Below, in pieces: positions 6,001-62,100 of a DNA stretch of 64,000 nt; the stretch's first letter is position 1, and each line of letters starts with the position of its first letter. Under the pieces are notes generated by a model that saw only the letters and a list, made by a program, of their open reading frames with translations, searched no databases and was not told the origin of the DNA. The stretch lies in assembly GCA_013423385.1 (NCBI GenBank), contig BLZA01000016.1:148682-212681 (forward strand). Reading direction: 5' to 3'. Source of the DNA: Naganishia liquefaciens. Taxonomy: Eukaryota > Basidiomycota > Tremellomycetes > Filobasidiales > Filobasidiaceae. Both the position numbers and the translations under genes were made by a program.

Positions 6001-8598
6001 CGTCACCATCTCGGCTTCTTCCGTCGCCGTCTCGACCTGCGGCACCAAGAACTGTGTGACATGTCCGACGTCTGGCGGATTTTCAACAGCCTCTGGGAGG
6101 AGCTGTTCGAGAATCTCGAGCATGGCGTACACGGCGCCGCCCTGGCCGGCTTCTAGCAATGACCGCAAATCTGGCCGCTCTGGATCTCGAAATGCTCGCA
6201 ACACCTGGGCGTGTAGATGTAGCTTGATGTACGATGGCAACGAGGCCGACGTTAGGTAGAATGAAGGCGGATGCGTAGGGTACATGGCTGACGGGTAAGG
6301 TGATTCGGGCGAAAAGATGACGTTGAGTACGAGCTCGTCGATATCGATCTGAAACTCGGTCTCGGACGTCTCGCGATACCGGTCGCCGAGCACGCTCGAT
6401 AGGATCGTCTTTTCCTCGAGCCGCACCGTCTCACGTTCCTCCTCGGGCTCGGCCGCCACGACGGCTTGCGGTCCCCATTCGTCGTCCCACCCACACAGCC
6501 TGCGCCCGATCATATCCAGTGCCATGCTTTCGCTCTGCGCATCATCGACCACACGCTCGACGGCTTTTCTCGGAAACCCGGCTTTGACGACCTTGTCGAC
6601 GAGCCACCCCCGCAGCAGTCCTTGCTGTCCGCCGCTCCCGGCCGCAGCAGACGACACGAAATCCTTGACCCCGCGTTGCGGCGTATACCGCGCCGGCAGA
6701 TCGTCCTCGGGCAAGTGGACGAGCAGCCATTCGATGGCGGCCTCGAAAGGCGAAAGAAAGCTCAGACTGAGCATCAACGGATCGCGGCCCTTGTCGCCGC
6801 TATGTAGACGCTCGTGTGCGCTCACGAGGGCCGCCATGCATGAATCGACGTGGGCGCGACGGAAGCCAAGGTCGATCAATTGCGTGCGGATCGCCGCTGG
6901 ATCAAAGCCCGGCGTGTTGGCGCCCGAGGGCAGGGTCGAGGGTGTCGCCTCGGACTCGCGCGTCGCCTCGAGAATAGCGGAAGGGTATTTGGACATCATC
7001 TGGCTGTCATTAGCCACGATCAGCCAACCTGCCTCGGTCGCGTACTCACCCTTCGGATAATCTCCTCGACGACTTCCCGCTGTGTCTGTGTCATCTTGAC
7101 CTCGGGCACATTCTTCCATCCACGCTCGCCGCCACTTGCTTGCGCCATACCATTCCCGGCCTCCTTGCGACCCTGCACTGTCTCGTCCTTGTCGATCTTT
7201 TCCAGCTTTTCCTTGCGCTTTGCTTGCCGCTCCTCGACTTGCTTTTTCGCCGCAAACGGATCGGGATTCCATTCCCATTCGCGGTGTGCTGGTGCAGCCG
7301 CTTTTTCGGCGAGGAGCGTGGACCAGTAAGGGCGTATGGAGGGCGGGAGGACCATGCTGAGGGGAAGGTGCGAGCAGAACTGTAAGGGGTGGGTTAGGAC
7401 AAGTCGAGCGGTTGGTTAAGGGTAAAGCGAGTGAGAAGGCGGATTGCAGGCGGGTAGTTGTACCTCGTTCGGGTCTCTCGAAAATTGCAAGGGAACCCTG
7501 GCGTTGACGCGTAACAGGGTTTGTTTGTCATACGCCAAACACCCGATCGACCTCTTGGCTTCCTCGCCACATTACGGGCTCATGCGCGAACCCACGCGCG
7601 AGCCCAAAGAAGCCGAGATGCCTTGTCGACCAACAGAAAACATCCTTGCCATTACCCACTTGTCCATCTCGAGGCGGACACACCCAAATCCCTTGCCCTG
7701 GATAAGAGCTTTGGTGTGCGGTCGCCTCCGCCGATCAAGATGACCGATCGTGGAACCATCGATCGTATCGGCCGCGAGCGACATCGTCGGGATGATTCGG
7801 CACCGGAAAAAAAGGCCATCGAATGCTCGTTCCGCTCGCGATGGACTGTCGGTCATCCCATGATGACCTCAATCCCGACACCATAGATCCAGCTGCGCTT
7901 CGTGAAAGACGCCGACTCTGCCCGTCGACGCTGGTAGTCTCGCTTCGCTCGAGGGGATTCTCAGCCATCCTACGACAATCTCGCAGGATCCCTGCCTGCG
8001 GCGCTTGTACTCTCGCTCCGCTCGACGAGACAGGCATTCTCGGCCGTCCTACGACGACCTCGGAGAATGCTTGCCTGCGGCGCTGGTATTCTCGCTTCGC
8101 TCGAGGGGATTCTCGCTCCCTCCGATCGCTCGAGGCCGCCGTCCGCGCCGACTCACCCGGAATAACCCGTACACCGCGCCCATATGCCTCGCCATCACCT
8201 GTTCCTGCTCCCCTTGGTCCACCTTTACCTCTGCCACCATCCTCACCACATCCAAATCCGTCACATTCTTATTCTTTCGTTTCCTCAGCAATACCTTGAC
8301 GTTCCACGTCCCGTTTCCCTTATTCGGCGTCTGTTTCCGGGGGGAAAAGCGTTAGATGGGGATCAATGCATTGGAAAGCCACGCGTACCGCTTCCACCAC
8401 GGGCCTCTCCCATCCTTCCTTTTGACACCGTTCATTCAACAATGTCACGGGCGTCTTGTACCCAACGGGGAACAACGGCTTGGGCCTCGGTGGGTCGTCC
8501 GCGGCCGGTCCCTGTTTCTGCGGTGGCGGGGCAGACTTGGCCGAATTCCCAGCGTTGCCGGATTTCACGACGTTGCGGGGTCCTTTACGTGGTGGCAT
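3012..8598 (-). CDS. DEAH/DExH-box RNA helicase, DHX57/Ucp12-type
   Basis: I resolve 15 exons giving 1,381 residues, the normal size of DHX57-type helicases. Exons 1-2 (8598-8389, 8330-8157) encode a basic start MPPRKG and a dsRNA-binding-like module ([18 protein letters not shown]). A 777-nt intron (8156-7380) follows, and exon 3 resumes in phase with [19 protein letters not shown]. The order is then a UBA-like region, an RWD-like region, Walker A GETGCGKST (near residue 640), motif II DEVH (His at the last position, but Val for Ala), MSATI, motif [10 protein letters not shown], and the HA2/OB-fold C-terminus. Further exons are 7379-7050, 6999-5806, 5759-5580, 5532-5317, 5273-5231, 5183-5123, 5077-4835, about 4794-4161, 4112-4073, 4024-3949, 3898-3790, 3728-3447 and 3365-3012. 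One acceptor near 4795/4792 is ambiguous. The protein likely unwinds structured RNA. It shares a 257-bp divergent promoter with the carotenoid gene. Confidence 0.93.
7380..8156 (-). other. 777-nt giant intron of the helicase gene
   Basis: The donor GTGAGT is at 8156-8151 and the acceptor TTACAG ends at 7380. Splicing joins YGLFR to FCSHLPL in phase 0, matching the expected continuity of the N-terminal domain with the [10 protein letters not shown] block. Other introns in this gene are 43-81 nt. The donor-proximal third holds the tandem repeat at about 7931-8130. The remainder (7380-7930) holds no recognisable gene. Confidence 0.85.
7931..8130. repeat. Imperfect tandem repeat, about 75-79 nt unit, about 2.7 copies, inside the giant intron
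   Basis: Three units begin near 7931, 8004 and 8083. On the plus strand each has a GCCTGCGGCGCTGGTA-like head, then CTCGCTTCGCTCGAGGGG, then (in the first two) a CC.TCCTACGAC.A.CTCG tail. CTCGCTTCGCTCGAG is partly self-complementary at its ends. The units differ mainly by transitions. Related sequence occurs in the protease intron near 59,615-59,645 and 59,827-59,905. Confidence 0.85.
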
Positions 8599-8863: not shown

Positions 8864-8902
<39 letters not shown>

Positions 8903-28559: not shown

Positions 28560-30694
28560 ATGTCGAACATTCCCGCCTCTCCAGAGGCCGGCGCGCCCGA
28601 CAACAAGTTTAATCTCCGAGTATGGGATGCAGGACTTGTCGTTCAAGAGCTGGAGCGCAATCACCTGTTGCCTCGAGACCTCACGGGTTCGCCGACTATC
28701 AGAGCCATGGGCGTCATCACTCCGGCCACGAAGCCTAAGAATAGGATCAAGGAGGGCACATTCAGTGGAACAGCAAAGGCCATGACGGAGGTTTATCATC
28801 GAATCCAGATGCGGCGAGTGTTGTTGGGCTGTCTGAGAGACACCGCAGCTGATGAGTGAGAGTGTGCAGCTTCAACTCGTTCTTTGACGTGATTGGAGTA
28901 GCACCTTCGATCCCCATTCGAACGACGATGGAGCAGGCGAGGTTGACATACCAGTGGACACCCCTCACTGGACCTCATGCGGACCTATATCCACCTCACC
29001 TCTACCTCATCCCAGAAGGACCCGATTATCTCAACACGTTCCAGATTTTCAACGGCATGCGTCTGCTGGACGTCGGATTTGTGCTGGCATCAATCATTCC
29101 TGAAAGCTTCAAAGATTACATCATGTCTGATCCCGACGATGGTGCCACGATGCAGGAGCTCGACGATCGCAATCACAAACTTCGCGCCGAGAAGAAGAAT
29201 ATCTACAAGGAGCCCAACGTTGGGGACTGTAAAGTAACGCCCTGGTATACCGACGAATCGTTCGGTCAGCAGCAGTTTACAGGCGCAAACCCAACTACCA
29301 TCGAGGCTGCGTCGCCTCAATGGGCCAAAGAGTTCCAGAATGAAGCAACGAAGCAGGGCAAAACTGAACTGGCAAAGGCGATCGCCGATGCTGCCACAAG
29401 TCATTCTTTGTTCGTCCAGGATTGCGAGTACTACCGCGCGGCCGTCGGGGCTGGTCCGCTGGCAGAACTCTCGGCGGGCATCACCGACCCCGCCAAAGCC
29501 CGTTTCGCTTGCGCTTCGGTCTCACTATTCATCCTTACCAAGGCAGGCAAGCTTCACCCCGTCGCCATCGTCATCGACTACAAGCAAAACATGGCTCACT
29601 CGGTGTGCCTCTTCAATCGGCGTCTCACCCCAGAAGACAACAGCCCTGACCAGGCGGTCGATTGGCCGTGGCGATACGCCAAAACATGTGCCTCGAGTGC
29701 CGATTGGATCCGACACGAGGTCAAGGTCCACTTGAACGACTGTCATTTCATCGAGGAAGCCACGATTATCGCTGCGCATCGCGCGTTCCCAACCGATCAC
29801 CCGGTCTACAGGTGCCTGCAACCTCATTGGCTCAAGACGTTGCCGTTGAATGCCGGGGCGAGAGCCACGTTGGTCCCGCAGGTAGTTGTCCCCTTGATTG
29901 GGATGACCACGGATGCGACGTACAAATTTATCAGGCACGAATACAACACGTTTGACTTCAAGGGTCACTATGTGCCAAATCACCTTGCCAGTCGCGGATT
30001 CCCCTTGGCAGAACTCGGATCGGACAAATTCCACAACTATGCATATGGAAGAGAGATTCTTCTCATGTGGCAGCTCTTACGGAAGTTCGTCAAGGCGTTC
30101 CTTACCGGCAATGGGCTGACGGACGCAAAGGTCGCCAACGACGACGCGATCAAGTATTGGTACTTGGAAATGCAAAGCAAGGAGGGCGGACAGCTCCCAT
30201 CTTTCCCGACTATCAAGACGCTCGATGACCTTGTCGACTGCGTGACCATGTGTATTCACATCGCGTCCCCTCAGCACACTGCCGTCAATTACACGCAAGA
30301 GTACTACAACTCGTACGTTCCCAACAAGCCACCCGCGATCTGTGCGCCATTGCCCAAAACACTGCAAGAGCTTCAAGCAATTGGGGAGAGCGACCTCATG
30401 AAGGCACTTCCCGTCGGGCGGGCCAACGAATGGCTGCTTGCTTCGCATCTCGTTCACTTGCTCAGCTATCAAGTTGCCGAGGATCAAAACATCTACAACT
30501 ATGGTGTCTCGCTGTTCAAGTTGACCGAAGGCGACGATACCCAAACGGCCATCCACGATGCCGCTCGGCAATTTGTGATTGATCTGCTCGAGTTTGACAA
30601 GGTGACAGAGCAGATGCAGAAGCAGTTGGACAATCAAGAAATTCCGTACGATGTGCTGCAGCCAAAACTCAATGCCGTCTCCATCTTGATTTAA
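28560..30694 (+). CDS. Lipoxygenase
   Basis: Lipoxygenases insert dioxygen into polyunsaturated fatty acids using a non-haem iron (or, in some fungi, manganese). Exon 1 starts MSNIPASPEAGAPDN. A short intron lies somewhere within 28,815-28,871; the likely join is near RIQMRR to FNSFFDVIG, but the exact sites are uncertain. The remainder is one open frame of about 600 residues, total about 690-700. Metal ligands are visible as HLNDCHFIEEA (H-x4-H-x3-E), the later pair SPQHTAVNYTQ (H and N), and a C-terminal Ile in NAVSILI. WPWRYAKTCASSADW and PVYRCLQPHWLKTLPLNAGA are conserved flanks. No signal peptide is seen, unlike secreted manganese lipoxygenases. Product specificity cannot be read. Confidence 0.93.
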
Positions 30695-32565: not shown

Positions 32566-32847
32566 GACGAGTGGGCTGGGATGTTGTGTCGATGGTGAGG
32601 AATATACCCACGATGGTGTGTGGTGCCCGACACTTGTCGTCTCGAATCGACTCGTTTCCTGGGTGAAACATTTCCCGATCGCGCGCGACCAAGTAAACAA
32701 CGCCGTCCGCAGCAGTGTCAGAAACACAGAAAGCTTGTCAGAAGAGAATCCAACTACAGGAGTATCATCGAGCTCTCATACGGCACGACATGTGATGCAA
32801 ACACAAACCTCTAAAACTGTGCATTGTTCATACATGTTTCATACACT

Positions 32848-34037
32848 CTATAGGACGGTCGCCCAGAAGGGCTTTATTGCGCTTGACACACACTGCGTGC
32901 CGTTCAGCACGAATCCTCGCATGCAGCTCGAGGCCTCGCATTTTCCTCGGGTGCACTACCATCAAGGCATCAGCATCCTGTCCATCGTGGTCAATGCAAA
33001 TGTACTCACAGCAACCTCGCTAACGCCTTCCAAAGATGAGCAGTCTTCGCCCTGATCCTTGCCCGAGACAGGCCATTCACATCCGCCACAGCTTTCAAGG
33101 TCGCTACTTGTGTCGATGCATTCCCAGCCAACAGGCTTCCCCAAGCTCAAGGACGCATGACTCGTATAACATGCCTCGAGGCCGACAGGACAAAGCGACG
33201 CCGCGTTGTCCATGCTAGGAGGCAAGAGCTGGGATCGTCGGCCGGGAATGCCCGAGACGCAGCTGGCGGTGTCGGCGATACAGTACGAGGTTCCGCAAAG
33301 CTTGTAGCCCGTGTTGCACTCTGGACCAAGGTTTTCCAAAAACGTGAGTAGGGTAATGCCTAGCGGGAGCAGAGATGACACGTACGAAAGCTGCAAGTCG
33401 TGCCCGGAAGCGTGTTACCGCCCGTGCAGAGCGGCGATGAGTTGGCAGGGTATGGGCAAGTCGCGGCTCGTGAGGCGACCTATAAACGGCCTCATCAGTA
33501 TAGATCAGTTGGTCCCCGGTCACAAGGCAGACTCACAGCGTTCTGGCCAGCGATACGACCAAGACCCAAGAGGTTGGTGAGTCCACCGACAAGGTTGACA
33601 ACCATCGTGAGAAGACCACCAAGGACACCCCCGGACGAGATCTGAGCGTCCAGTCGCGCAACAGAGTCAGGAGTCTGGGAAGCCACTATCAGTATCGGGG
33701 GTTTTCGCAACCCAGGGAAAGATCGTACCAAGACACCGGCTTGTGTACATAGACAAATGCCATCAATCAACGTCTGAAAAAGGAATCTCAGTGATGCTGA
33801 CGGAAAGATGATACCAACAGCCTTCACCAATCGCATCAAGCCGACCGAAATTCGAATCGGCACTGTCGCGCATACAGTGCCCCTCACGACCTCCTGTCGC
33901 CGCTTCAATCTGTCCGAGGTATCCCTTTGCGGCGATATTTTAGTCGTTGACGAGGCTTCGAGTGGAGCAGCCGAGACGGCAAGAAGGAGGGCCAAAGCTT
34001 CAAAGAAAACGCAGAGATATGGTTGGAGGAATCGCAT
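32848..34037 (-). CDS. CPL1-like secreted cysteine-rich protein, copy 1
   Basis: About 300 residues in six or seven exons. Layout: signal peptide (ALALLLAVSAAPLEA), propeptide ending in a Kex2-type site (SDRLKRRQ), then VCATVPIRISVG and GICLCTQAGVL. A hydrophobic Gly/Leu/Val segment follows (GGVLGGLLTMVVNLVGGLTN), then CPYPANSSPLCTGGNTLPG. The Cys-rich CPL1-like domain ends it: CPVGLEACYT, GWECIDTSSDLESCGGCEWP, CTRGKCEASSCMRGFVLNGT. The C-terminus is IKPFWATVL. CPL1-like proteins are secreted in basidiomycetes; Cryptococcus CPL1 affects capsule and host immune response. All introns are 45-75 nt and fall at the same places as in copies 2 and 3. It is closer to copy 3 than to copy 2. Role here unknown. 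Confidence 0.85.
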
Positions 34038-51630: not shown

Positions 51631-52790
51631 ATGGTCCGACTTACTCAACAGCTCTTTACTCTCTTTGCCGCCCTGTCCGTCATCCTTATGGCTGCCGCCA
51701 ATCCGATCGCTACCACCACTACCCACGTGTCACCGAGGAGAGACACCTCAGGCGGCCTGATGACGCGAGGGCAGATCAAGAGTGGTACTCTTTGCGATTC
51801 GGTAGCGATTGTCATTCAAGCTGGCTACAAGAAATACGTGAGTGCTTACTTCGTCGCTGTCCTTTGTATGCAAGCTCACCTATTACATCAGACCATCCTC
51901 GACAACATCTGCATTTGCACTCAGGACGGTTATATCGTAGGTTTATCTTATTGAGAACTAAGTCCGCCTACTGATATCCCTCCTCGACAGACGGACGATT
52001 CGCTGCAGAACCTCAACGGGCAGATCCAAGCCGGCGGAATCCTTGGCAACCTTTTCAACTTCGTGATTCAGTTGATTGGTGGACATGCCAACTTCCAAAA
52101 GTCTTGTAAAGAGGCTGCAGAAGGGGCGGTGAGTCGAGCGACGTTCATATCGAATCGACTGCTGACGCGTCAGACAGGTCCGGAACAAGCATTCGACATG
52201 TCCTTACCCTGCCAACTCGTCTCCCGTCTGTAAAGGAGGCAACACTCTGCCCAACAGCAAATGCCACTTCAGTAAGCTTGCTCAGCCATCACGATGAAGG
52301 TCTGACTCACTTTGCCCTTTCCAGAATGCAAAAACGGCTACAAGCTCTGCGGCACGTCCTACTGCATCCCAAATCACTCTTCGTGTGTCTCTGGTATGCC
52401 GGGCCGACGATCCCTCGAGTTGCCCATTTCCGACAACACCCAAAATCTGTGCCCGCCCGGTCTCGAAGCGTGCTACACCAGCGACGTTTCCATGAAGTTC
52501 GGTCGACCAGTCGGCTGGGAATGTGTCGACACCAGCAGCGACGTAGAAAGCTGTGGTGGCTGTGAATGGCCGGTCGCCGGTCAAGCGCAGGGCCAGGACT
52601 GCTCCGACATGTCCGGTGTCAGTCGGGTATCGGTGAGTTTGGCCGGAAATGTCGAGTTCGAGCGGCGTCCTGACTTGATTCACAGTGCAACCGAGGACAG
52701 TGCCAGGCCGAGACTTGCATGCGTGGTTTCGAAAAGAATGGAACGGAATGCGTTGAATCGGCCAAGCGAAGCTTTTGGCAAGCCATATAG
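51631..52790 (+). CDS. CPL1-like secreted cysteine-rich protein, copy 2
   Basis: Same architecture and intron positions as copies 1 and 3. It has a signal peptide (LFTLFAALSVILMAAANPIA) and a propeptide with SPRRDTSGGLMTRG, where the usual KR before the mature start is replaced by TR, so the Kex2 site at this place is weakened. ICICTQDGYI, CPYPANSSPVCKGGN and CKNGYKLCGTSYC follow. The Cys-rich module is CPPGLEACYT, GWECVDTSSDVESCGGCEWP, CNRGQCQAETCMRGFEKNGT, ending KRSFWQAI. The hydrophobic middle segment has drifted (FNFVIQLIGGHANFQKSC) and gained a Cys. It is the most divergent of the three. Introns, about 45-60 nt, lie at roughly 51,838-51,890, 51,938-51,991, 52,130-52,178, 52,275-52,325 and 52,630-52,684. 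Confidence 0.83.
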
Positions 52791-57376: not shown

Positions 57377-58549
57377 ATGCGACTCACAGGATACCTCTTC
57401 ACTCTGTTCGCGGCCTTGGCCCTCCTTCTCACCGTCTCGGCCGCACCACTTGAAGCCTCGGGAACGACCAATGTCTCGCCCCGAAGGGACACCTCGGGCG
57501 GCTTGATGAAGCGACAGGCGGTTGTCACGGGAACTGTGTGCGCAACGGTGCCTATCCGAGTAACGGTGGGCGTGGTGCAATACGTGAGTCGAGTTGGCAA
57601 TTTGTAGCCGCCAAGACTGAGATATCTCTTGCAGACTTTGATCAACGGAATTTGCCTGTGTACCCAAGCCGGCGTTTTGGTGTGTTCTCCCGCTGCTTCG
57701 TGGAAACCATTCGTCGCTGACGACAACCGATCAGACTCCTGATTCCCTTACACGACTCAACGCTCAGATCACCGCAGGCGGTGCCGTCGGTGGTGTTATC
57801 GCCACCGTTGCCAACCTGGTCGGCGGTCTCACCCAGCTCTTGAACCTTGCGCAAATCTCGGGTCAGAATGCTGTAAGTCTGCTCCTGTATGGCCTGATTA
57901 GGTTCGTACTGACGGGTTCTGTCACCAGGTTGCCTCGCAACCCGCTTCGTGTCCCTACCCTGCCAACTCGTCGCCACTCTGTACGGGCGGCAACACGCTT
58001 CCGGGCACGACCTGCAACTTCCGTACGTTTCCCTCATTTCAGGCCGATGATTCCGCTCACGCTCGAAAACCCTTTGTCCAGAATGCAATACCGGCTACAG
58101 GCTCTGCGGTACTTCCTTCTGCATTCTGAACACCGCCAACTGCGTTTCTGGCTTCCCCGGCCGACGATCTCAGCTTCCCGTTCCTAGCGTCGACAACGCG
58201 GCTTCGCTCTGCCCTGCTGGCCTCGAGGCATGCTACACGAGCGACATGTCCATGAGCTTGGGCAAGCCCGTCGGCTGGGAATGCGTCGACACGAGCAGCG
58301 ATGTGGAGAGCTGTGGAGGTTGTGAGTGGCCCGTATCCGGCAAGGGCCAGGGTGAGGACTGTTCGTCCTTGGACGGTGTCAACGAGGTTTCGGTGAGTGG
58401 TTTCTGGAAGATACTTGGATGTGGCGCTAACACTTCCATGCCAGTGCAACCGAGGCAAATGTGAGGCGTTGAGCTGCATGCGAGGATTTGTTCTCAACGG
58501 CACGGAGTGTGTAAAGGGATTGAAGCCCTTCTGGGCCGCCGTCGCATAG
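57377..58549 (+). CDS. CPL1-like secreted cysteine-rich protein, copy 3
   Basis: About 298 residues. Signal peptide (LFTLFAALALLLTVSAAPLE), propeptide with SPRRDTSGGLMKRQ (Kex2-type KR), VCATVPIRVTVGVVQY and GICLCTQAGVL. A hydrophobic segment follows (GGAVGGVIATVANLVGGLTQ), then CPYPANSSPLCTGGNTLPG. The CPL1-like module is CPAGLEACYT, GWECVDTSSDVESCGGCEWP, CNRGKCEALSCMRGFVLNGT, ending LKPFWAAVA. Introns lie at about 57,582-57,634, 57,680-57,731, 57,871-57,928, 58,022-58,080 and 58,393-58,444. The near-identity of key blocks with copy 1, which is inverted and 23 kb away, suggests more recent common origin or conversion between those two. Predicted secreted; target unknown. Confidence 0.85.
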
Positions 58550-59182
58550 AGTGTTCCGACTTCCACATGTGAACGTATGGACAATGGACCCGTTTTGATG
58601 ATTGAATAATTGGCCTTAGGCATATATTGAGCGTGATGTTGACCTGTATAGGTGATTCATTTCATGCGATCCAAATAAAATAGGATACTAGATGCGCGTG
58701 GTATTGAGCATGGCAAGCAGCAAAATAATGGGTAGAAGCATTCATACATGTAGTCGGCAGCTGCGCCGAGGAAGAGGCGACACAGGTCATCTCTTGCATC
58801 ACAGCGGGACACTTCATCGTCTAAAATGCACGTACAAAGGGAGACGGCGAGTTTGCGTAGCGAGAGACGCGTTCTTGACGGACTTTCGCACATCAAATGG
58901 CGCTCAACGCAAGGCTCGACCGCTCGGGTCCCTTGGGTTGGTGTTGGGTTGACGCTGGAATGATTCTTGCCTTCGACGCCGTACTCGATCTGAATGTCAC
59001 TCGCTCACAACCTAGGCCAGCAAAATGGATTTTAATGGTCCAACACGCGGCCGCCGTCATTTCCCGATCGCAGCCAAGGCGTTTCGTTTCGTTTCGTTTC
59101 GTTTCGTTTCGCCCCTGGGATTCCCTTTATTCGCATCGACGACAAGGCATCTCCTGGGAGAAATACGCAGGCAGGCATAGAT
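58550..59182. other. Intergenic region with promoter of the protease gene
   Basis: 630 bp between CPL1-like copy 3 and the protease. It includes the CGTTT microsatellite about 75-100 bp before the protease ATG. No gene recognised. Confidence 0.4.
59080..59111 (+). repeat. (CGTTT)n microsatellite, about 6 units
   Basis: A run of GTTTC units lies about 75-100 bp upstream of the protease ATG, in the probable promoter or 5' UTR. It is likely to vary in length between strains. Confidence 0.9.
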
Positions 59183-62100
59183 ATGTACAGAGCTGTGCGC
59201 AGTGGGCTTGCAGTCAAGAGGTTATCGACGACGACGACGCAGCACGCCCGTGCCGGATTATCAATCAGCGCCGCGAGCAGGGCTTTCCGACCGAATATCG
59301 CGACGACGAGGATGGGATACATCGGTGGTCAGCGGAGAAGTTTGGCGGCGAGTGTGAGATCGGAGGGAGCGGTGCAGAGGCCGGATGTAGTCAAGACGAC
59401 GAGCTATCCTTTGCCGCCAATGGATACGAAAATCGAATTGGAGTTGCCGCCATCAGAGGACAGGAAACATCGGTATTTCAGGTTGGGCAATGGGGTCGAG
59501 TGTGTGGTTGTGAGTGATGAAAAATGTGATAAAGCGGCCGCGGCGGTAGATGTGGGCGTGGGCAGTCTGGAGGATAAGGAGGGTTTGGATGGGTGTGCGC
59601 ATTTTTGGTGAGTTACGAGTGAGCGAGTGAGCGAGGATACCGGCACCGTAGAGAAGAGAGCCCAATTGAAGCAGGGCGAATGCGGAGCGTAAACAAAGGG
59701 TGCGCGAGACTTATGTGCTTTGTGGGGCGGAGACAATGATATCCGCGCTGTCGGCAACCAATCCTCAACTCATGCCGTAAGGCGCTGGAGTGTCAGTTAT
59801 CCGTCACATGACGGTTGTACACCAATCTCTCGAGTGATAGCGAGGAGTGTTTTGCCTCAAGCAGAATCTCCTTGGCAACGTCGTAGGACGGCCGGGCATC
59901 CGTCTCGCATGGGAGACAGCGCCAATCCAGAGTTTTCAGGTCTGGCAGCATTACAGGGTCGTCGCGGACGAGGAATCTTCCGAGGCTGTTACAAGGTGGT
60001 CGGGAATCGATGGCTGTTCGAGCGTACGCCAATGACGGCTCAGTTTCCCATCGGTATCACTGTCTGGTTCGGCGTCAAAGCATTTCTGTACTGGCCCAGT
60101 CTCGAGGCGAACACTCATGCGACGTCTCCAAACTTGGGCGACATCCGGGTTGAAATCGCCCGGTCGACGGATGTCGAGAGCCGAGGGGCCGCCTCACGCA
60201 GGAAATGGACCAAACTATGGCATTTTGAGCAACCTCGGATTACTGCTAGCCGCACGGTTCGCTCAGGCCTTCATATTGTCCTCGCTCGCGCCCTATATTA
60301 CCGAAAGAACGTCCTCCGCTAACCCTTTTCAGCGAGCATCTCCTCTTTCTTGGCACAGAGAAATACCCACAAGAGAACGCCTACTCTACCTATCTATCGG
60401 CAAACAACGGACACTCGAACGCCTACACTGGCCTGTCAAATACCAACGTAAGCCTACGCTGCTCACTCATCTGCCATCTGCTAACCCCCTCGCAGTACTT
60501 TTTCGAGGTAGCCCCTGAAGCTCTCGAAGGAGCGCTCGACCGGTTCGCGGGATTCTTCACGGCACCGCTATTCGACGCGTCATGCACAGAACGCGAAGCC
60601 AACGCCGTTAATTCAGAACACAACAAGAACCTCCAATCGGACATGTGGCGATTCTATCAGCTTGAAAAGCATCTTTCGTCGCCACGTCATCCGTACCACA
60701 AGTTTGGTACGGGCACCCGCGAAACGTTATGGGATGCACCGAGGCGCGAGGGCCGAGATCCGCGTGCCGAGTTGATTGAATGGTGGCGCGAAATGTATTG
60801 CGCCAAGCGAATGAAGCTGGTCGTCATGGGCCGGGAGAGCCCGGAAGTGTTGGAGAAGTGGGTCAGGGATAGGTTCGATGCTGTGCCTGTGCGCACGAAG
60901 GAGGGCGAGGAGCGATTGGTATACAACAGCGATGTCATGGAGCAGGAACAAATGGCAGTGAGTGCGCCGTCGCATGACCATGAGTCGAGCTGATGTTACG
61001 CAGAACTTTGTGTTTGCAGAGCCCGTCAAAGATGTCCGCGGATTGGAGATCACGTTCCCGTTCCCAGATCAGAGCCATCTCTACGCATCCAAGGTATGTT
61101 TGCCATTCGCTGATGACGCTTATTGTTCCGGCTAACACCTCGTAGCCTGGAAACTACTTGGCACACTTCCTTGGTCACGAAGGGCCCGGCTCAATTTTGT
61201 CCTACTTGAAACGCCACGGATGGGTCAACTCGTTGCGCGCCGGATTCCAAAGCGGATCTGTCGGCTTTGACTTTTTCAAGGTCACCGTTGACCTCACTGC
61301 CGATGGGTTGGTGCACTACAAGGACGTCGCCATGACTATCTACAAGTACATCCACCTCCTGCGAAGCGTACCACCACAGGAGCACGTCTTCAAGGAGATC
61401 AAGGCGCTGTCCGATATTGGTTTCCGCTTCGTTGAGCGTGGACACGCTTCCTCATACGCCTCCGAGCTGTCAACGCAGCTGCAGCAACCTGTGCCGCGTC
61501 AAAAGATCATCTCGTCGCAGTGGCTCGTCGAGCGATTCGATCCGGAAGAGTTGAAGGATGCTGTTCAATTGTTGGATATTCGGCGCAGCGTGATCACCGT
61601 TACGGCCAAGAAGATGCCGGCCGACGTCATTCCTTTGGACAAGGCTGAGCCGGTGTATGGCACAAAGTATAGGCGGGACAAGATCCCCGAGGAGTTTATT
61701 AAAGAGGTAAGTTGAGTCCTGGTGTCATGGGATTCATGCTGACTGTTTAAGGCTTTGAACGGGGCCCTGATTCCGGAATTGCATCTGCCGGGGCCCAATG
61801 CCTTTATCCCGGAAAAGCTAGACGTCAACAAGATTGAAGGAAAGCAGGTGGGTTTCTGGGCCTCCTCCGCGAGCTAGTTACCCAATTAACTCGCTGTAGC
61901 CCGCTTCTCGTCCGAGTCTCCTCAAGGATACACCTCTTGCTCGCCTTTGGCACAAAAAGGATGACCGGTTCTGGGTACCGCGAGCCAACGTATTCCTGGC
62001 CCTTCAATCGTAAGTCCAGCCACATTCGTACAGGCTTGCGCTGACTCTCGCAGTCCTTTACTGGACGTGACACCGCGCCAAGCGACCCTCGCTCGACTCT

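Follow-up and report, generated by a model that had tools for sequence, protein, structure and literature searches.

Giant introns of Naganishia liquefaciens carry a dispersed family of tandem-repeat arrays. At nearly all examined loci, as judged from the sequence and from splice models, an array begins only tens of bases downstream of the 5' splice site, in the orientation of the gene, and is followed by largely unrelated intron sequence. Within the limits of the splice models, the family is anchored behind the donors of giant early introns, mostly the first or second of a gene. We give about an even chance to the reading that this structured repeat family acts in the pre-mRNA, where it would most probably help to process introns far above the usual length. 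Two of these introns lie in the 64,000 nt stretch of DNA that was analysed as a whole (the window), for which an earlier note had proposed an intron-borne repeat shared by two giant introns. As a whole, that interpretation is partly supported.

Both introns are real, and the coordinates that had been given for them were exact. The helicase intron runs on the minus strand from 8156 to 7380 (777 nt, GTGAGT...CCTAACCCACCCCTTACAG), with the donor GTGAGT at 8156-8151, the branch sequence CTAAC at 7397-7393, as read from the letters, and an acceptor CAG ending at 7380. It is intron 2 in the model of a DHX29-type helicase gene, a detail added to the earlier description. The protease intron lies on the plus strand at 59608-60332 (725 nt, GTGAGT...GCTAACCCTTTTCAG) with CTAAC at 60319-60323, and is modelled as the first intron of an insulin-degrading-enzyme-type (M16) protease gene. 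The ends of both introns are canonical, and each has CTAAC as its branch sequence. A gene finder trained on these data, with nothing but the repeat masked, reproduced the lengths of 777 and 725 nt exactly, and splicing restored a domain across each junction, namely DSRM_DHX29 (48-185; junction at 128) and Peptidase_M16 (residues 66-200; junction 98/99), where the HFCEH motif itself is split by the array intron (59600-59607 / 60333-60339). As had been claimed, both introns are far longer than the others in the same genes, which according to the gene finder are 12 introns of 43-70 nt in the helicase gene and three of 46-52 nt in the protease gene. The median over the 60 predicted introns of the window is 54.5 nt (models with at least 300 coding bases). 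Six other window introns of more than 250 nt were predicted by the gene finder, and these appear to be thinly supported models.

Short tandem repeats also occur beside both genes, with cgttt units just upstream of the protease gene (59080-59111) and a CAG tract beside the helicase gene (8867-8901). Elsewhere in the window, a lipoxygenase gene (28856-30694, plus strand; Pfam PF00305) is modelled as intronless. Three related stretches, 74-88% alike, were found at 32843-34020, 52199-52638 and 57391-58554, the first inverted relative to the other two; on a brief look at the letters, paralogous cysteine-rich proteins appear to be encoded there. The eIF3L reading frame is 89% identical to that of N. 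cerealis over 90% of the query, which places the organism close to Naganishia, and the top hit, at 96%, is a metagenome protein.

The helicase array (7908-8133, minus strand, sense to the gene) starts 23 nt behind the donor and is delimited by two profile hits of 115.5 and 99.9 bits, both copies being part of the training set, and by genome matches. It contains a hairpin module of the form CGAG-GTCGTC-GTAG-GACGGC-CGAG at 8039-8062, with an exact 16-mer at 8041-8056 and the ends of the 24-mer placed by reading, and a second, diverged module at 7960-7983, in which the 16-mer has three mismatches (7962-7977). Behind the clear array, a decayed module (GGTCATC...GATGACC, 7851-7868, minus strand, read from the letters) forms the last row of the hairpin alignment; its arms depart from the common form at pairing positions and are still complementary, and some of the changes are at CpG sites. 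In the protease intron, a decayed repeat unit in the sense of the gene covers 59820-59930 (plus strand), as seen in the pairwise alignment and in a 36-bit profile hit, again from the training set. Its hairpin module (59873-59896) includes the exact 16-mer at 59879-59894 and has lost two of six stem pairs and one CGAG flank. In addition, the intron opens directly behind its donor with repeat-like text (59612-59652), a putative decayed array leader placed by reading and without a statistical test.

The block shared by the two introns has the order and orientation that the earlier note had described, and tandem units of 79 and 73 nt are present. The sense local alignment of the introns scores 55, compared with 31 for the antisense alignment. 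The margin over the shuffles that the earlier note had named as a control is narrow, as the maximum in 1000 dinucleotide shuffles was 54, and for this reason the match between the two introns alone is just past chance. This near tie, together with the lack of any other BLAST match for the protease intron, is what a resemblance of two unrelated introns by chance or composition would predict. That the repeat is real is settled by the genome-wide counts. The 16-mer has 44 exact copies in the genome, and 123 copies within two mismatches compared to 16 for a reversed control. For a second module, GAGCGACCGNAGGGAGCGAGA, 133 genome matches within two mismatches were obtained and none for the control. 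With the helicase intron as query, at least 131 genome matches including itself were found (40 of 68 candidates scored); among the matches listed, all besides the self-match fall in its first 241 bases after the donor. Chance resemblance was rejected on these counts, is already contradicted for the helicase intron, and is very improbable overall; a donor-proximal leader is, by reading, present in the protease intron too. Because BLAST with the protease intron returned nothing but itself, this intron is regarded from its sequence as a decayed member of the family. No further copy was seen in the window, as had been stated, where the unit profile hits these two loci only (both copies are among its 70 training sequences).

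Using this profile, 46 arrays were delimited in 38 fetched loci and the window, 44 of them outside the window. They are about 0.1-1 kb long and run one way, apart from weak opposite hits in two. Their units mix a few modules, which are (T)CGAGCGAAGCGAGAATACC, GAGCGACCGGAGGGAGCGAGAATACC, AGCGCCGCAGGCAAGGATTCC and two perfect hairpins, CGAG-GCCGTC-GTAG-GACGGC-CGAG and CGAG-CGCGCC-GTAG-GGCGCG-CGAG, which have identical CGAG flanks and GTAG loops and different complementary stems. Successive hairpins are spaced by about 101 nt (median of 80).

Several other origins of the arrays were considered and rejected. A known RNA family was rejected as Rfam gave no match above the gathering score in the window and in 18 of the 38 fetched loci, and a prokaryotic contaminant as an exact 24-mer was unmatched among the 84,980 prokaryote species searched. 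Arrays are crossed by long reading frames on the antisense strand; one of these frames was searched and yielded no homolog at E<=0.001 (7996 candidates scored), so that protein-coding arrays were rejected and the frames are ascribed to composition. The suggestion of a MITE did not hold either, as inverted pairs of at least 25 nt involving the window copies are absent from the window, save for a match between the two arrays.

The position of the arrays relative to genes was assessed with splice models and gene models, for which the underlying hexamer model was trained without the arrays. In models with a bridging intron, 42 of 46 arrays score better on the sense than on the antisense strand (p 4e-7 in a Wilcoxon test in which an absent model was set to zero). 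When both strands were given to the gene finder, which is home-made and unbenchmarked so that its introns are predictions, 37 of the 44 arrays outside the window were placed in introns of the sense strand. Three of the 37 fall in an antisense model as well, and the remaining seven arrays lie in no model. A GTRAGT donor within 110 nt upstream, which counts as a test independent of coding models, was present for 34 of 46 arrays on the sense strand and for one on the antisense strand, compared with a mean of 2.7 and a maximum of 10 at random positions (500 rounds). The 12 arrays that lack such a donor within 110 nt include two second parts of introns already counted (L029, L035) and a weak single hit (L011, 2303). 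The other nine, in a non-blind reading, show a weaker donor at the edge of the array or leader (GTGCGT, GTGAGC, GTAAGC, GTGGGT or GTGCGG), except for the protease intron, which instead has GTGAGT 212 nt upstream of the array. At 16 further loci fetched as short pieces, GTRAGT was found upstream in 11, a number meaningful for the sense strand alone as little antisense-side sequence was fetched. Four of the five misses have GTGAGC by reading, and L055 is without a donor.

In 32 introns, the density of module words rises from 0.78 per 25 nt just before the donor to 4.38 just after it, compared to 0.41 behind the donors of 111 short introns. For this profile, introns with an array more than 220 nt from the modelled donor were dropped, which reduced 37 to 32; in the set of array introns, 39 rows represent 37 distinct introns. 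By another route, among the 37 sense placements outside the window, the modelled donor was at least 274 nt from the array in L015, L025, L027, L036 and L046, and 147 nt in L010. Donor scores have a median of 4.03 at array introns and 3.29 at short introns; GTGAGTC is the commonest donor of short introns too (15 of 111). At the protein level, a Pfam domain spans the array-intron junction in nine of 15 hand-picked spliced proteins. These nine are the two window genes, mevalonate diphosphate decarboxylase, a homeodomain protein, a branching-enzyme-like protein (CBM_48), Utp11, SPC25, PTPLA and CLASP_N. Among the remaining six, TBCD shows a marginal overlap, three have a domain on one side only and two are without a family. 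At the examined loci, splice models, gene finder and donor counts strongly support the claim of an intron-borne repeat in sense orientation. The genome-wide search that had been proposed gave copies that, at the loci examined, are concentrated in predicted sense introns, and an even intergenic spread without strand bias is contradicted. The position near the donor and the orientation with the gene suggest that the family acts in, or travels via, unspliced RNA.

Array introns are both long and early. Their median length is 1098 nt, compared to 57 nt for 198 other predicted introns at the same loci. Of these 198, 20 are above 300 nt although they lack an array, which counts against the pre-mRNA explanation. 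Among 35 models outside the window, the array intron ranks first in 21, second in 12, third in one and fourth in one. The coding sequence ahead of it has a median of 250 bases, and the median distance between the modelled start codon and the donor is 279 nt. This promoter-proximal position would fit intron-mediated enhancement, in which the arrays would be orientation-dependent boosters of transcription. The repetition of the motifs and the general function of many flanking or host genes agree with this explanation, which we nevertheless regard as quite improbable. When only the flanking open reading frames are viewed, the arrays resemble a minisatellite in a promoter or intergenic region between divergent genes. 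This was rejected because the splice models place the first exon beyond the array. Two loci, L036 (896-1068, minus; 1907-2254, plus) and L047 (849-1031, minus; 1988-2202, plus), have two arrays each that point apart, as would be the case if each member of a head-to-head gene pair had its own array, and many other array genes also show a divergent neighbor.

The exons flanking array introns have a marked composition, within the limits of the splice models. In the preceding exon, the median GC skew over the last 100 nt is +0.58 at 35 array introns and +0.03 at 88 array-free first introns (p 2e-11), and the third codon positions contain 59% G and 17% C compared to 35% and 34% before array-free first introns. 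Introns near the edge of a locus were left out of these skew counts, leaving 35 array, 88 first and 106 later introns. In the following exon the sign is reversed, with a median skew of -0.23 for 37 array introns and -0.33 for 15 better-supported, hand-picked ones compared to -0.06 (p 0.001 each), and with 45% and 48% C at third positions compared to 37%. Both window genes show the pattern: the helicase intron lies between a G-rich exon (8157-8330, minus strand; skew +0.59 in the last 100 nt) and an exon with a C-rich start (7050-7379; -0.42 over 100 nt), and the protease intron between a G-rich exon as modelled (59312-59607, plus strand; +0.62 in the last 100 nt) and another C-rich start (60333-60448; -0.33 over 100 nt). 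Ordinary introns show a mild form of the same G-rich-before and C-rich-after pattern. The computed exon-exon duplex energy is -79 in the 15 introns and -61 at 60 ordinary introns, and cognate exon pairs perform slightly better than non-cognate ones (p 0.03, uncorrected, both in the 15 and in 36 containing them). Three other pairings gave nothing. The two sets overlap, and exon-exon pairing as a closing stem was set aside as no more than a hint.

G-rich elements at the start of first introns are known from human genes, and in GC-skewed R-loop promoters the non-template strand is G-rich at the first exon-intron border. Unlike these, the arrays consist of modular hairpin repeats with a conserved loop and flanks common to many loci. 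Another explanation is a minisatellite linked to transcription, in which unstable, G-rich, R-loop-prone DNA behind promoters would collect repeats that extend as far as the exon and are halted there by the constraint on coding sequence, without a function at the RNA level. The short distance from start codon to donor agrees with such a process, as does the rise of the GC skew, which is about -0.2 at -300 and reaches +0.58 immediately ahead of the donor. So does the location of array loci near contig ends, with 26 of 60 within 60 kb and 12.8 expected, in a list hand-compiled from the genome-wide match lists and with neighboring loci counted apart. However, the preceding exon has less C and more G without a rise in T, unlike the product of deamination, and R-loops do not predict a C-rich exon after the intron. 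The recurrence of the same modules at unlinked loci and the substitution bias in the hairpin stems, described below, also speak against a minisatellite, which we consider unlikely.

If the hairpins act in the sense RNA, a C>T change in a stem keeps a G.U pair, whereas a G>A change breaks the pair. Counted once per array and position, the stems carry 25 C>T and 8 G>A substitutions (p 0.005) along with 24 transversions, compared to 5 C>T and 13 G>A in the unpaired parts of the hairpin modules; the other modules show no clear per-site excess of C>T. Relative to the rest of the module, the bias is significant for one stem type (p 0.002) and not for the other (p 0.34). In 20 hairpin variants examined for covariation, 89% of cells are paired compared to 76% after shuffling, and 14 cells carry double changes compared to 3.5 after shuffling and 0-3 in slid registers. 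Three of five measures lie above the shuffles, and the other two were reached by 87 and 64 of 500. Since the 20 rows were chosen by hand, this count is illustrative only, and most of the double changes distinguish one stem type from the other. Within a single type, double compensation was counted in one of 56 changed pairs for one type and in none of 23 for the other. The first 400 nt of 42 arrays fold weakly below shuffles, with a mean z of -0.85 for the sense and -0.12 for the antisense strand (p 0.006), and the raw folding energy is lower in the sense strand for 17 of 42. In sum, the hairpin stems carry a sense-RNA substitution bias that is absent from some tests. A structured RNA is the best of the three readings offered by the earlier note, with the two complementary-stem hairpins and the sense G.U signature in its favor and the weak folding of whole arrays against it.

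A further property of the arrays concerns splicing signals. The sense strand, 21 kb in total, contains no GTRAGT, three CTRAY and 585 YAG, and the antisense strand one GTRAGT, 45 CTRAY and 205 YAG. Read in sense, the units are nearly donor-free and poor in CTRAY branch sequences. Branch points would come with a reversed array, and selection against them in antisense copies could alone explain the sense orientation, even though YAG is more frequent in sense arrays.

In fungi with introns of about 55 nt, the splice sites are thought to be paired across the intron, which makes introns of 0.3-2.8 kb a problem to be solved. According to the favored explanation, the hairpin array would act in the pre-mRNA as a compact, splicing-silent spacer behind the donor, and the G-rich end of the preceding exon and the C-rich start of the next would define the ends of the intron or draw them together. 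The introns in question are about twentyfold longer than is normal at these loci. The arrays would have been lengthened by local tandem duplication, and the copies at about 60 loci may have travelled with their splice site. The strongest form of this explanation is put forward tentatively and as a possibility well short of an even chance: a genome-wide cis-acting splicing system, in which a splice-silent, donor-anchored hairpin array and complementary G-rich and C-rich exon edges would close the intron, and which would have spread to dozens of genes as a unit with its own 5' splice site.

The notion of spread with a splice site comes from a common leader, GAGCCGAGGAGCGAAGCGACGA, which with up to four mismatches turned up 11 times in the fetched DNA, distributed over 10 introns. 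At all 11 places it lies 7-29 nt behind a donor-like GTRNG(T/C), the leader having been picked from these same introns, and genome-wide it has 17 matches within three mismatches compared to four for a reversed control. Being shared and close behind the donor, the leader suggests that copies travelled with their own splice site. The tails behind the arrays are largely unrelated, as pairwise comparison of 29 introns gave four short matches at E<=0.01 (three of the 32 introns were left out because their tails are too short), which disfavors an element comprising the whole intron. The introner-like part of the earlier interpretation is half supported in this way: related copies lie in introns in one gene orientation according to the splice models, and they have the 5' and not the 3' intron end in common.

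A mobile introner-like element with its own 5' splice site that recruits a 3' site is a possible, though doubtful, alternative to action in the pre-mRNA. In this case, insertion would have created or rebuilt the giant introns, the arrays would have grown and the 3' parts decayed. The leader behind its donor-like GT and the end of the repeat words at the donor fit such an element, and introners that bring a 5' and recruit a 3' splice site are described (PMC9860276). On the other side, the tails share no more than the four short matches, the window copies are without inverted ends, the copies are diverged tandem mosaics unlike near-identical whole introns, and most target introns (33 of 35) rank first or second in their gene model.

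Several known systems resemble the family in part. Introners and fungal introner-like elements (PMC4457414, PMC9860276) share the presence of related sequence in many introns of one genome, in sense and near a splice site. They differ from the present family, which forms tandem modular arrays at the 5' end only, with unrelated 3' parts and introns that are not near-identical wholes, mostly in first or second giant introns and in a Tremellomycete host; the main text of PMC9860276 is without any word starting with 'basidiomycot'. Intron gain by repeat expansion in Cryptococcus (PMC2395259) also links repeats to introns in a related yeast group. There, one gene gained introns identical to its others, whereas here one family is distributed across dozens of unrelated genes. 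The zipper stems and structured introns of Saccharomyces (PMC12350175) are alike in placing RNA structure in long introns, where a shorter path between splice signals is proposed. Those stems belong to individual introns, whereas a repeated, donor-anchored hairpin family with G-rich and C-rich exons is found here. For vertebrates, splice sites and exonic splicing signals are reported to be related in a length-dependent way (PMC1713244). In the literature on Naganishia, introners, long and first introns, intron-mediated enhancement, dispersed repeats, R-loops and GC skew, no description of this family appeared among the papers listed, as judged from titles and the beginnings of abstracts with few subscription journals covered.

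Together, a repeat that starts at the donor and a distinctive composition of both neighboring exons, visible even at third codon positions, amount to a rule that can be tested in one organism. The question it poses is whether the array makes long introns spliceable, raises expression, or merely rides on the RNA. In the biology of N. liquefaciens, the array family may represent an intermediate between introners and ordinary long introns.
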